From: a virus
Length of the DNA: 23,565 nt
Strand: one strand, 5' to 3'
Virus record (IMG/VR): IMGVR_UViG_3300044638_000839
Span: 1 to 23,565 of that record
A program made the translations under genes and the position numbers. Under the pieces are notes generated by a model. That model worked only from the letters and a program-made list of their open reading frames with translations. It searched no databases and was not told the DNA's origin. Positions 2,360-23,565 of this stretch are shown here, in pieces. Positions within the stretch are counted from its first letter, which is position 1, and every line of letters begins with the position of its first letter.

Positions 2360-2541
2360 TGGCAACAAAGCCCAAGTCCTCTGTCAATGCGGCTGGCAAC
2401 TATACGAAGCCAACCATGCGGAAGAACCTGTTTGAAAAAATCAAAGCAGGGACAAAGGGCGGCGACCCGGGCGAATGGTCAGCCCGTAAAGCACAACTGT
2501 TGGCGGTGGAGTACAAGAAAAAGGGTGGAGGCTACAAATGA
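2359..2541 (+). CDS. Small basic protein (60 aa)
   Basis: ATG 2359 overlaps the fibre gene's TAA by one base. The protein is Lys/Gly-rich with the core Gly-Glu-Trp-Ser-Ala-Arg-Lys-Ala-Gln-Leu and the end Lys-Lys-Gly-Gly-Gly-Tyr-Lys. Similar short proteins occur in marine and freshwater phages, to my recollection without known function. It heads a run of three small basic genes joined by ATGA overlaps between the fibre and hub genes. The long in-frame upstream extension to 2320 lies within the fibre gene and is not supported. Confidence 0.75.
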   Translation: MATKPKSSVNAAGNYTKPTMRKNLFEKIKAGTKGGDPGEWSARKAQLLAVEYKKKGGGYK

Positions 2542-2771
2542 AAGCCCCGCAAAAAAGCCTGAAAGATTGGGGCGCTCAGAAGTGGCGCACCAAGTCCGGC
2601 AAGCCATCGTCTGAAACGGGCGAGCGTTATCTGCCCGAGAAGGCCATTAAAGCCTTGTCATCGGCTGAATATGCGGCGACCACCAAGGCAAAGCGTGAGG
2701 CCACAGCCAAAGGCCAACAATTTGCAAAGCAGCCCAAGAAGGTTGCCGAAAAAATCAAGAGGTTTCGATGA
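2538..2771 (+). CDS. Small basic protein (77 aa), possibly DUF5872-like
   Basis: ATGA overlap with the gene before it; GGTGGAGG (2524-2531) gives a good ribosome binding site. The conserved-looking block Leu-Lys-Asp-Trp-Gly-Ala-Gln-Lys-Trp-Arg-Thr-Lys-Ser-Gly-Lys-Pro is followed by Gly-Glu-Arg-Tyr-Leu-Pro-Glu-Lys-Ala and a Lys/Ala-rich helical tail. I recall such proteins under DUF5872, from memory only. Function unknown. The strong positive charge and placement in the virion block fit a nucleic-acid-contacting or minor virion protein, which is inference. Confidence 0.75.
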   Translation: MKAPQKSLKDWGAQKWRTKSGKPSSETGERYLPEKAIKALSSAEYAATTKAKREATAKGQQFAKQPKKVAEKIKRFR

Positions 2772-3061
2772 AGACTCCAGCCTATGCACGCAAGGAAGGT
2801 CAGAATCCCCGCGGTGGACTTAACGCCAAAGGGCGTGCTGCTGCCCGTGCTGAAGGTATGAATCTAAAGCCTCCCGTTAAGTCTGGTGACAATCCTCGCA
2901 GGGCATCGTTTCTAGCCCGTATGGGCGGCAATCCTGGCCCTGAATACAAAGATGGTGAACCTACCCGCCTGCTGTTAAGTTTGAGGGCTTGGGGCGCATC
3001 ATCTAAGGCAGACGCGCAAGCCAAGGCAAAGAAAATATCCGCACGGAATAAGGCGAAGTAA
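2768..3061 (+). CDS. Small basic protein (97 aa), possibly DUF6321-like
   Basis: The last of the three-gene basic cassette, again starting by ATGA overlap. The sequence has Asn-Pro-Arg-Gly-Gly-Leu-Asn-Ala-Lys-Gly-Arg near residue 13, then Lys-Ser-Gly-Asp-Asn-Pro-Arg-Arg-Ala-Ser-Phe-Leu-Ala-Arg-Met-Gly. It ends Trp-Gly-Ala-Ser-Ser-Lys-Ala-Asp-Ala followed by a Lys/Ala tail. This matches my memory of the DUF6321 group seen in environmental phages; no function is assigned to it. The gp10-like gene starts at the very next base. Confidence 0.75.
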   Translation: MKTPAYARKEGQNPRGGLNAKGRAAARAEGMNLKPPVKSGDNPRRASFLARMGGNPGPEYKDGEPTRLLLSLRAWGASSKADAQAKAKKISARNKAK

Positions 3062-4471
3062 ATGCAAATACCAATCCTCAACGGTATTTTCACCGACAAC
3101 ACCCCTGAGCTGCGTACATCGTACCCAGTGAATCTGATGCCTGTTCCAAAAGTGTCGGGCATCAGCAATGGGTTCTTGCGTCCCGGTGATGGCATTGTTG
3201 CCAACGGCACTGGCCCAGGGGTTGATCGTGGCGGCATCAACTGGAATGGCGATGTTTACAGGGTCATGGGAACAAAGCTGGTGGAGATCAGCAGCAATGG
3301 TGCAGTGACCATTCTGGGCGATGTGGGCAGCGGTGGGCTTGTGACCTTTGATTACAGCTTTGATGAGCTTGCAGTGACATCGGGCGGGAACATTTACTTC
3401 TGGAATGGCACGACCCTGACGCAGGGCAGTTACCCACTGGTGACGATTGGGCCAATCATTGATTTTTGCTTCATTGATGGGCGTTTTATGCTCACTGATG
3501 GAGAACGGTTGTTCCTTACAGACATTGGCAATCCGCTGGTTATTGGCGCATTTGCCTTTGAAGAGCCTATTGCCGACCCAGATCCAGTGACATCGCTGCT
3601 GCGTTTGCGGAATGAGGTCTACGCCATCAACAGATTCACGATGGAGGTTTACGACAACCTCGGAACTGCTGTGCCGTTTCCATTTGGCGTGATACAGGGC
3701 GCACAGGTTCAAAAGGGCTGCGTTGGTGTTCAGGCTTGCTGTGTCTATCTTGACCAAATTGCATTCTTGGGCAGTGGGCGCAACGAAGCCCCAGGCATTT
3801 ACACTGCGGCATCTGCAACCACTCAAAAAATCAGTACGCAAGAGATTGACAACATCTTACTGGACTTCACAGAGGCGCAGTTGTCCTTGGTCAAGATTGA
3901 GGCCAGAAACGACAAGAACCATGAGCATCTTTATGTGCATCTGCCCAATCAGACGTTAGTTTATGACGCATCGGCATCACAGGCACTGCAAACCCCTGTC
4001 TGGTTCATCTTGGTCAGCACCCTGACGGGTCTTGCCCAATACCGAGCCAGAAACATGGTGTGGGCCTATGACAAATGGCTGGTGGGTGACCCGCAGTCAA
4101 ACAGCATCGGCTATCTGGTACAAGACATTGGCAGTCACTGGGGGCAACAGGTCTATTGGGAATTCGGCACACTGATTGTCTATAACGAGAGCAATGGCGC
4201 CATCTTTAATGAGTTGGAGTTGGTCAGCTTGACGGGAAGCGTTGCCCTTGGCAAGAATCCGCAGATCAGCACCAGCTACTCTTTAGATGGCAAGTCGTAC
4301 AGCCAAGAAAAGTTTATCTCAGTTGGCACGATTGGCAACACCAAGAAGCGCCTTGCATGGTTTCAGCAGGGTCACATGAGAAACTGGCGCATTCAGCGAT
4401 TCAAGGGCGACAGTGATGCCCATGTGTCATTTCTGCGACTTGAAGCTCAGATTGAGCCACTGGCATACTGA
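3062..4471 (+). CDS. P22 gp10-like tail hub / packaged DNA stabilization protein
   Basis: 469 residues; P22 gp10 is about 472. The start (Gln-Ile-Pro-Ile-Leu-Asn-Gly, then Tyr-Pro-Val-Asn-Leu-Met-Pro-Val-Pro-Lys), the repeated beta-propeller-like strands, the Val-Gln-Lys-Gly-Cys-Val-Gly segment and the Thr-Leu-Val-Tyr-Asp-Ala-Ser segment all parallel gp10 in order. gp10 forms the hexameric hub beneath gp4, to which spikes and needle attach. The start directly follows the preceding stop, with no spacer and no obvious AGGAG, so translation is probably coupled. The stop overlaps the next start by one base (TGATG). Confidence 0.85.
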   Translation: MQIPILNGIFTDNTPELRTSYPVNLMPVPKVSGISNGFLRPGDGIVANGTGPGVDRGGINWNGDVYRVMGTKLVEISSNGAVTILGDVGSGGLVTFDYSFDELAVTSGGNIYFWNGTTLTQGSYPLVTIGPIIDFCFIDGRFMLTDGERLFLTDIGNPLVIGAFAFEEPIADPDPVTSLLRLRNEVYAINRFTMEVYDNLGTAVPFPFGVIQGAQVQKGCVGVQACCVYLDQIAFLGSGRNEAPGIYTAASATTQKISTQEIDNILLDFTEAQLSLVKIEARNDKNHEHLYVHLPNQTLVYDASASQALQTPVWFILVSTLTGLAQYRARNMVWAYDKWLVGDPQSNSIGYLVQDIGSHWGQQVYWEFGTLIVYNESNGAIFNELELVSLTGSVALGKNPQISTSYSLDGKSYSQEKFISVGTIGNTKKRLAWFQQGHMRNWRIQRFKGDSDAHVSFLRLEAQIEPLAY

Positions 4472-22001: not shown

Positions 22002-22769
22002 ATGCACTATTACCAATTTCACATCGGTGACTACAAGTCACACACACATCATTTGTCCTTGATTGAGGATATAGCTTACCGCCGACTTTTAGACCATTAC
22101 TATCTGCATGAAGTGCCTATCAAGCAGCGTGACATTGCTCGGCAAATAGGCATGAGGGACTACGAGCAAGAAGTCTTGACTGTGCTAGATGAGTTCTTCA
22201 CATCGGCTGAAGATGGCTTCATCCACCCCCGTGCAGATGCTGAGATTGCCAAGTTCAAAGAGTTTATAGAAGCCGGAAAACGTGGGGCGGCTAAGAGGTG
22301 GTCAAAGGGTAGCATTAGGGAGGCTATTAGCCCCCCTAATGCAACCCCAATAGCAACCATAAACCATAAACCAATAACCAATAACCAAGAAGATACATAT
22401 ATATGTCCACCTGACGGTGAACCTGAGGCTAAAGATAGTTTGCCAGTTTGCCAACACAAAGCCGTTATGGACTTGTATCACCAGCACTTGCCAACCCTAC
22501 GCAGGGTGGAAGTCTGGAACGAAACCCGCAAGGGCTACTTGAAGCAAAGATGGCGTGAAGTCGCTGCTGACATTGGGCAGAGTAGGCCAGCTACACAAGA
22601 AGCAGTGTTGGAATGGTGGGCTGGCTTCTTCCAGCACATCAACAAATCCAAGTTCTTGACAGGCAAGGTCAATAGCAAAGATGGCCGAGCTTTTGTGGCC
22701 GACCTTGAGTGGATCATCAAGCCGAGCAACTTCGCAAAAATCATTGAGGGCAAATATCATGGCACTTGA
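22002..22769 (+). CDS. DUF1376 (YdaU-like) replication-region protein
   Basis: 255 residues. The N-terminus (Tyr-Tyr-Gln-Phe-His-Ile-Gly-Asp-Tyr ... Ile-Glu-Asp-Ile-Ala-Tyr-Arg-Arg-Leu-Leu-Asp-His-Tyr-Tyr) is the DUF1376 signature (PF07120), usually found in the replication region of phages and thought to be a winged-helix replication initiator. The middle (about 105-150) is a Pro/Asn-rich linker. A Trp-rich C-terminal helical domain (about 170-250) may bind a helicase or loader. The in-frame TTG at 21987 lies in the folded leader and is rejected as start. No strong ribosome binding site is present. Confidence 0.82.
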   Translation: MHYYQFHIGDYKSHTHHLSLIEDIAYRRLLDHYYLHEVPIKQRDIARQIGMRDYEQEVLTVLDEFFTSAEDGFIHPRADAEIAKFKEFIEAGKRGAAKRWSKGSIREAISPPNATPIATINHKPITNNQEDTYICPPDGEPEAKDSLPVCQHKAVMDLYHQHLPTLRRVEVWNETRKGYLKQRWREVAADIGQSRPATQEAVLEWWAGFFQHINKSKFLTGKVNSKDGRAFVADLEWIIKPSNFAKIIEGKYHGT

Positions 22770-23142
22770 ATCTTGGAAAACAAAACCCGCAGAGCCAGAA
22801 ACCAACGACACGCTTTGCCAGGCGCACGGCTGTCCAAACAGATGGGCCGTGGACACTGGCGGTAGACTTTGCTCGGACCATGCCTGGGCAGATCCACACA
22901 AATGGCCGCAAATCACGCAAGCTCAATTCCATAAGCGCAAGCCTTTGGACAACACAGGATTTGCAAATCCAATGACACAAGCGGAAAAGGTTGCGACCTT
23001 GCACGCACTGCGGGACATGATGAAAACCAGACCAGACCCAAAAGCCTGGGCGCATAAGCTGCGAGACAGAGAAAACGCTGGCGAAGAGTTGACCAGAACG
23101 CAGCGAGAGGCATGGCGCACAGCCTTGAGGAGCAATGAATGA
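22759..23142 (+). CDS. Zinc-finger phage protein, 127 aa
   Basis: Start 22759 (Met-Ala-Leu-Glu-Ser-Trp) overlaps the preceding stop by 11 bases, with GAGGG nine bases upstream; the longer frame from 22681 lies inside the DUF1376 gene and is rejected. Cys20-x4-Cys25 and Cys38-x2-His41 form one likely zinc site (Leu-Cys-Ser-Asp-His-Ala-Trp-Ala-Asp). The C-terminal half is helical and basic. I recall similar proteins after replication genes in related phages; function unknown, DNA or protein binding likely. Confidence 0.7.
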   Translation: MALESWKTKPAEPETNDTLCQAHGCPNRWAVDTGGRLCSDHAWADPHKWPQITQAQFHKRKPLDNTGFANPMTQAEKVATLHALRDMMKTRPDPKAWAHKLRDRENAGEELTRTQREAWRTALRSNE

Positions 23143-23565
23143 GCTGGCTCTTTTCGCAGGCGCTGGTGGAGGAATACTTGGGGGCCATTTGCTCGGATGG
23201 CGAACAGTCTGTGCAGTCGAGTGGGAACCCTACGCAGCTTGCGTACTTGTCGCCAGACAAAATGACGGAGTTCTCCCGCCTTTCCCGATTTGGGATGACG
23301 TTCAAACCTTTGACGGTCAGCCATGGCGAGGAATTGTTGACGTTGTTTCGGGCGGCTTTCCCTGTACGGACATTTCCATCGCAGGCCGAGGCGCAGGGCT
23401 TGACGGAGAGCAGTCCTCAATGTGGTATCACATGGCGCGGGTGGTTAGCGAAGTTCGACCCAGATTCGTATTTGTGGAAAACAGCCCAATGCTCATTCAT
23501 CGAGGACTCGGACGAGTCCTTGGCGACCTTTCCAGTCTCGGGTATGACACGCGATGGACTGTTAT
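23135..23565 (+). CDS. Cytosine-5 DNA methyltransferase, N-terminal part
   Basis: 143 codons are visible and the frame is open at the right edge. Motif I is Leu-Phe-Ala-Gly-Ala-Gly-Gly-Gly (residues 6-13, SAM binding). Motif IV is Ser-Gly-Gly-Phe-Pro-Cys77-Thr-Asp-Ile with the catalytic cysteine. Motif VI is Val-Glu115-Asn-Ser. It would methylate cytosine in phage or host DNA, probably protecting the phage from restriction. ATG 23135 overlaps the preceding gene by eight bases, with GAGGAG (23127-23132) just upstream at only two bases. Overlapped by a second open frame from 23139. Confidence 0.92.
   Translation, partial: MNELALFAGAGGGILGGHLLGWRTVCAVEWEPYAACVLVARQNDGVLPPFPIWDDVQTFDGQPWRGIVDVVSGGFPCTDISIAGRGAGLDGEQSSMWYHMARVVSEVRPRFVFVENSPMLIHRGLGRVLGDLSSLGYDTRWTV
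23139..23565 (+). CDS. Candidate overprinted ORF inside the methyltransferase gene
   Basis: ATG 23139 overlaps the previous stop by ATGA, like most genes here, and the GAGGAG at 23127-23132 is six bases upstream, better spaced than for the methyltransferase. The frame stays open for 142 codons to the window edge. It starts Met-Ser-Trp-Leu-Phe-Ser-Gln-Ala-Leu-Val-Glu-Glu and later has Phe-Asp-Pro-Asp-Ser-Tyr-Leu-Trp-Lys-Thr-Ala-Gln-Cys-Ser. I recall, unverified, phage proteins with this start and the Trp-Lys-Thr-Ala-Gln-Cys motif. The motif lies exactly over the methyltransferase's Val-Glu-Asn-Ser-Pro-Met-Leu, so it could be a passive shadow or a truly expressed overlapping gene. Confidence 0.4.
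   Translation, partial: MSWLFSQALVEEYLGAICSDGEQSVQSSGNPTQLAYLSPDKMTEFSRLSRFGMTFKPLTVSHGEELLTLFRAAFPVRTFPSQAEAQGLTESSPQCGITWRGWLAKFDPDSYLWKTAQCSFIEDSDESLATFPVSGMTRDGLL

Follow-up and report, generated by a model that had tools for sequence, protein, structure and literature searches.

M.EcoHK31I is a C5-methyltransferase that recognises YGGCCR and is made up of two polypeptides. Its small-subunit gene, as described by Lee, Kam and Shaw in 1995, reportedly lies inside the large-subunit gene in another reading frame, and both products are said to be needed. The larger polypeptide comprises motifs I–VIII and X together with the predicted recognition domain, and the smaller comprises motif IX (PMC3404938). 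In M.AquI, too, motif IX and the catalytic motifs belong to different polypeptides, the alpha and beta chains (PMC3404938). Another-frame coding within a phage methylase gene is, in addition, described for ShiLan, in which a mobile HNH endonuclease is encoded by an inserted element (PMC11855218).

The viral locus considered here carries two overlapping frames on one strand, and it is likely that they encode the two subunits, catalytic and recognition, of a heteromeric C5-methyltransferase, with the subunit genes overprinted along the full length of a single stretch of DNA.

The locus and its two reading frames

The window (the whole stretch of DNA that was analysed) is an entire IMG/VR record of 23,565 bases, and the record stops at 23565, inside the methyltransferase gene. 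The features at its right-hand end are as follows.

22759..23142, + strand: upstream gene (MALESWKTK...RSNE), whose open reading frame ends at 23142
23127..23132, + strand: ribosome-binding site GAGGAG, 2 nt from the ATG at 23135 and 6 nt from the ATG at 23139
23135..23565, + strand: frame 1, C5-cytosine methyltransferase catalytic half (motifs I–VIII region), residues 1–143, running off the record (PF00145, family HMM)
23139..23565, + strand: frame 2 (+1), predicted overprinted second protein, residues 1–142 (phrog_1008, family HMM, selection in relatives)
23139..23142, + strand: ATGA, in which the frame 2 start overlaps the stop of the upstream gene, a layout usual for translational coupling
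23153..23173, + strand: frame 1 motif I, FAGAGGG, read as QALVEEY in frame 2
23351..23368, + strand: frame 1 motif IV, GGFPCT, with PCT in place of the usual PCQ
23474..23491, + strand: frame 1 motif VI, VENSPM; frame 2 reads LWKTAQCS across motif VI (23472–23495)
23526..23558, + strand: frame 2 conserved segment TFPVSGMTRDG (consensus SxTxPxWGxMRxG), over LGYDTRW in frame 1

That frame 1 encodes a C5-methyltransferase, as an earlier note on this DNA had proposed, is borne out by the presence of motifs I, IV, and VI in the window and by matches to PF00145 (E=1e-22) and to the family HMM (E=1.6e-98); the frame also matches phrog_363. The same note had mentioned a second type of phage protein, often labelled methyltransferase-related in databases, and a search with frame 2 does lead to phrog_1008 (‘DNA methyltransferase’; E=1e-7), with the family HMM giving E=2e-74. 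Its reading of the WKTAQC segment as out-of-frame motif VI is correct, the segment sitting over ENSPML, and the ATGA overlap and better-spaced ribosome-binding site that it ascribed to frame 2 are both present.

Both frames remain open to the end of the window, frame 1 for 143 codons (23135–23563) and frame 2 for the 142 visible codons previously noted (23139–23564); the third frame contains 8 stops. The openness of frame 2 is not significant in the window alone: when synonymous codons are permuted with the frame 1 amino acids held fixed, 1.6 stops are expected and none is obtained with a probability of 0.14. Relatives are therefore needed to judge frame 2. The window holds only the part of the gene over motifs I–VIII, with the recognition-domain part of frame 2 lying beyond the record end, and the recognition-region results given below come from relatives rather than from the window.

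The likely ATG of the upstream gene (22759) lies shortly before the end of the preceding gene (22769), and the upstream gene is likely to be co-translated. The PCT form of motif IV found in the window occurs in 5 of 203 relatives, PCQ being present in 190; a change between CAG and ACG at this codon would be silent in frame 2, which reads Val-Arg either way.

Openness, selection, and start signals in relatives

A tblastn search with frame 2 returned 27 phage records. Seven relatives, from phages of Pseudomonas, Acinetobacter, Salmonella, Klebsiella, Vibrio, and Microcystis and one from a spring, were translated in full, and both frames span the whole gene in them (about 230–300 codons). Profile scans of viral contigs yielded at least 575 confirmed relatives with the frame 1 profile and at least 560 with the frame 2 profile, and genomes of bacteria taken one per species yielded 197. 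The locus counts that follow are samples among the matches listed, and the sequences are related to one another.

The earlier note had held that stops in the second frame of most homologous genes would speak against an overprinted pair. Among the matches listed, frame 2 stops (counted up to 25 codons before the gene end) are absent from 75 of 76 unique loci sampled by frame 1; permutation of those 76 loci leads to an expectation of 4.6 frame 2 stops per gene and of 0.4 stop-free genes in total. Conversely, an internal frame 1 stop is absent from 77 of the 80 loci sampled by frame 2 among the matches listed, and a third sample, drawn by the motif WVEWLMGWP only, contains both frames in nearly every complete locus. 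The third frame of the relatives has 10–27 stops per gene. The ends of frames 1 and 2 lie no more than 60 nt apart in 184 of 203 complete relatives. Among 80 loci from the one-per-species bacterial genomes, both frames are intact in 72, frame 1 has a stop in seven, one is truncated where its contig ends, and frame 1 is present in all. Searches by the C-terminal motif found no frame 2 without frame 1 in viral contigs or bacterial genomes; a C-terminal-only match on a P. aeruginosa plasmid, considered as a stand-alone frame 2, turned out to be a full pair. One frame is broken in some loci (frame 2 in L119, L246, and others; frame 1 in the seven of 80 bacterial loci), and hence the pair is not always functional.

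Two further loci differ in layout. In L121, frame 1 extends about 100 codons beyond motif X and thus seems to be fused to the following reading frame. L385 (E. coli PT62; 1–529 and 2501–3238) is a prophage-like region in which two C5-methyltransferase genes lie near each other, each showing signs of a frame 2 recognition part.

Selection was assessed by classing substitutions according to their effect in each frame across 47 independent pairs, with bootstrap intervals, and 35 pairs of flanking genes, taken from these loci, served as controls. Both measures of second-frame selection were 0.97 in the flanking controls, as expected without overlap. Over motifs I–VIII, dNN/dSN for frame 1 was 0.18 (0.15–0.20), and for frame 2, dNN/dNS was 0.58 (0.51–0.66) and dSN/dSS was 0.30 (95% interval 0.26–0.37); an unreduced rate of synonymous change, the other outcome that the earlier note had named as contrary to its proposal, was thus found in the controls but not in the overlap. 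Changes that are silent in frame 1 and introduce a stop into frame 2 were about 15-fold rarer than in controls (0.018 versus 0.272). Within the recognition region, frame 1 was neutral (dNN/dSN 1.24, 1.11–1.39) and frame 2 constrained (dNN/dNS 0.44, 0.32–0.56), and over motifs IX–X, both frames gave values of about 0.5. An initial analysis of less diverged pairs agreed with these results.

Rates by codon position follow a similar course along the gene. Up to residue ~160, position 3 of frame 1 evolves fastest, with positions 1 and 3 equal at residues 123–142; over residues ~163–282, it is position 1 of frame 1, which is the third position of frame 2, that changes fastest, and the periodicity of frame 1 returns at 283–302. 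Judged by these substitution patterns, purifying selection acts on both frames of the overlap, and the selected frame switches to frame 2 past motif VIII, with motif X again in frame 1. The overprinted gene pair that the earlier note had suggested is accordingly supported by selection on both frames in relatives.

Start signals are also retained. Frame 2 begins with ATG in 194 of 203 loci, and codon 1 of frame 1 can serve as a start in 178; in all of the remaining 25, an in-frame start lies upstream. At codon 2 of frame 1, AAT occurs 190 times and AAC once, compared with 739 AAT and 1189 AAC at the other Asn codons of the same genes; the T of this AAT makes the ATG of frame 2. The median aligned spacing from the ribosome-binding site in the 203 relatives is 8 to frame 2 and 4 to frame 1. 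From selection and start signals together, we infer that both frames are translated.

What each frame carries, and how the pair may be read

Frame 1 of the 203 relatives contains motif I in 201, motif IV (PC) in 196, motif VI (ENx) in 199, motif VIII (RxR) in 191, and motif X (GNxQV) in 190, and no recognition domain with motif IX was found in it between motifs VIII and X. A motif IX-like W..MG[FW] instead lies in frame 2 of 187 of the 203. AlphaFold places the catalytic part of frame 1 at about 90, residues 183–233 below 50, and the motif X helix above 90; its PDB matches, M.HaeIII and M.HhaI, cover the catalytic domain only (~174 columns). An hhalign comparison of frame 1 with the single-chain family likewise aligned residues 1–167 only (E=1.6e-39).

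Frame 2 proteins are about 230–380 residues in length. Their C-terminal part consists of ‘WPTPxAxDxK’ modules followed by motif IX (NPxWVEWLMGWPxGWTDL), with mostly one to three modules per protein, up to five, and more in longer proteins. Tandem WPTP-type modules in variable number, up to five, are seen in L262, L026, L051, and L231 and, by analogy with multispecific phage methyltransferases, may represent multiple recognition units. When frame 2 was compared by hhalign with 22 single-chain enzymes, only the last module and motif IX aligned (97.1%, E=6.7e-11), and the same module and motif IX occur between motifs VIII and X of Hamulus (HMM E=3e-7). Frame 2 most likely carries the part that tells the enzyme where to act.

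The profile of frame 2 reached a best E of 0.34 against PDB sequences, and no model for frame 2 exists in Pfam or NCBIfam. Predicted alone by AlphaFold, frame 2 scores a pLDDT of 58.6 and a pTM of 0.26, with the C-terminal part at about 75; so poor a model of the lone chain fits a subunit, but also a poor alignment. The first ~65 residues of frame 2 are missing from distant overprinted relatives (for example, the Zerg group). This overprinted N-terminal part may bind the catalytic domain.

Other arrangements of the same parts occur. Mycobacterium phages Hamulus and DotProduct encode similar modules and PEWMMGWPAGWVT in the frame that also holds their catalytic motifs and motif X. Among the actinophage relatives of Hamulus with the recognition region in frame (39 loci), the +1 frame averages 5 stops over that region and 1.6 over the catalytic part, where 2.5 are expected. 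In an actinophage split group (31 loci), the recognition region forms a second gene in +1, which is open over that region and has 2.6 stops over the catalytic part (2.1 expected); frame 1 has 4.5 stops over the recognition region. The Zerg-related and phiGT1-related groups, which are distant and overprinted, have no frame 2 stop over most of the gene in 16 of 19 and 22 of 34 loci, respectively; L408, L440, and L444 are among the exceptions, with a recognition region encoded in frame 1 and with 12, 8, and 5 frame 2 stops. There are also frame-swapped loci, where the catalytic half continues into the recognition half of frame 2 (L233, L234) or vice versa (L178, L184), and these may stem from sequencing error. 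In L233, L234, L178, L184, L266, and L410, one net frameshift swaps the halves, making them natural fusions. In a tree of the catalytic half, built by a quick method and with long branches, loci of like arrangement group together, with several switches from one arrangement to another, of which at least three are forced for ‘overprint’. The record of phiBT1 (L008; 1284–1784 and downstream) states that its DNA methylase ‘may be inactive’. Its recognition region and motif X continue in +1, as in Vash, where they form a second gene; the enzyme is likely to be split rather than inactive.

Several readings of the overprint can be weighed against these observations. Frame 2 could be truly overprinted and yet do a separate job, for example as a regulator or an anti-restriction factor, rather than act as a methyltransferase subunit. 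Its N-terminal part is without a known homologue in PDB, Pfam, or NCBIfam and is under selection of its own, and AlphaFold shows no independent fold for frame 2, all of which would suit such a role. The C-terminal part, however, shares homology with the recognition region and motif IX found in single-chain enzymes, the homology falls exactly where frame 1 has lost constraint and predicted order, and frame 1 is recognisable beside frame 2 in all 80 bacterial loci; a separate job is therefore unlikely. A second reading, programmed frameshifting, would yield one protein by a +1 slip after motif VIII, with frame 2 lacking a start of its own. The selected frame does switch at the border between motif VIII and the recognition region, and the second half of the actinophage split group does continue in +1, but frame 2 is conserved and stop-free along motifs I–VIII and keeps an ATG and a ribosome-binding site, none of which frameshifting requires. 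The return to frame 1 for motif X would, moreover, call for a second slip, and we regard this reading as distinctly improbable. That frame 2 is non-coding, its openness a product of methyltransferase conservation and base composition, agrees with the chance of a stop-free window noted above but is hardly credible and, for the family, is refuted by the permutation, the flanking controls, the rate of stop-creating changes, the AAT:AAC ratio of 190:1, the neutral evolution of frame 1 over precisely the region in which frame 2 is conserved, and the 10–27 stops per gene in the third frame.

The preferred reading, a heteromeric enzyme with overprinted subunits, would work as follows. The frame 1 product would be the catalytic subunit, with motifs I–VIII, a disordered linker in place of the recognition domain, and motif X. 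Frame 2 starts 4 nt later, and both products would be made in parallel from one ribosome-binding site. The first part of the frame 2 product would be encoded over the catalytic motifs, and its last part would supply the target-recognition modules and motif IX. The two products would then assemble, the catalytic subunit methylating where the frame 2 subunit directs. Such assembly and joint activity are predicted.

Spread, annotation, and relation to known systems

The pair is likely to represent a class of C5-methyltransferases that is widespread in phages and prophages, in which a recognition subunit lies in +1 over the full catalytic gene, and which has been overlooked because annotation tools keep just one of two frames. 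Some records annotate frame 2 as hypothetical and not the methyltransferase frame (phPA-G, Vibrio 1.236.O, and a P. aeruginosa plasmid); the plasmid, NZ_CP124656 (L383, 1464–2150), lists only frame 2, as the hypothetical protein WP_232060884.1. The earlier suggestion that the second frame had spread widely under wrong names stands as regards its spread and the misannotated records, but the ‘methyltransferase’ label itself is not simply wrong, because frame 2 carries the recognition region and motif IX.

If so, these would be among the longest (about 700–1100 nt) and most widespread same-strand overprinted pairs in tailed phages. The arrangement would explain why many phage C5-methyltransferases seem to be without a recognition domain, and likewise why a second database family named ‘methyltransferase’ is without catalytic motifs. 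Predicted activities and specificities of these enzymes would have taken the recognition part from the wrong frame, and enzymes assayed as frame 1 only may have been taken for inactive. The existence of single-chain, split, and overprinted lineages would allow direct tests of how overlapping genes, and split enzymes, arose.

A description of this overprint in phages was not found in open-licence papers, and the family is regarded as a variant of the known two-polypeptide C5-methyltransferases. By HMM, frame 2 is a member of phrog_1008, the PHROG name being silent on the overprinting of a catalytic gene, and pieces of frame 2 are also scattered over phrog_26627, phrog_35493, phrog_27243, and phrog_31772. 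The ShiLan insertion shares an other-frame protein within a phage methylase, but its HNH endonuclease is unrelated to frame 2. The single-chain C5-methyltransferases of Hamulus and DotProduct have a homologous catalytic half, modules of the WPTP/LPTP type, and motif IX; unlike the present family, however, they have all of these parts in one frame, and stops abound in their second frame across the recognition region.

Among two-polypeptide enzymes, M.AquI has motif X in the small subunit, whereas the main family here has motif X in frame 1 and a complete overlap. The actinophage split group (31 loci), which is not the group of the window, is M.AquI-like in having motif X in the second polypeptide and neighbouring genes that overlap briefly at most. 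M.EcoHK31I is closer, as far as can be likened from its description, in that frame 1 has motifs I–VIII and X and motif IX lies in frame 2. In its reported layout, too, a second gene overlaps the first in another frame, the overlap here being +1 and full length. The recognition domain of M.EcoHK31I is predicted in the large subunit, whereas here the corresponding region evolves neutrally in frame 1, the constraint being on frame 2. Also unlike M.EcoHK31I, frame 2 extends over the entire gene, beginning at its start, and most of the pairs come from phages and prophages.
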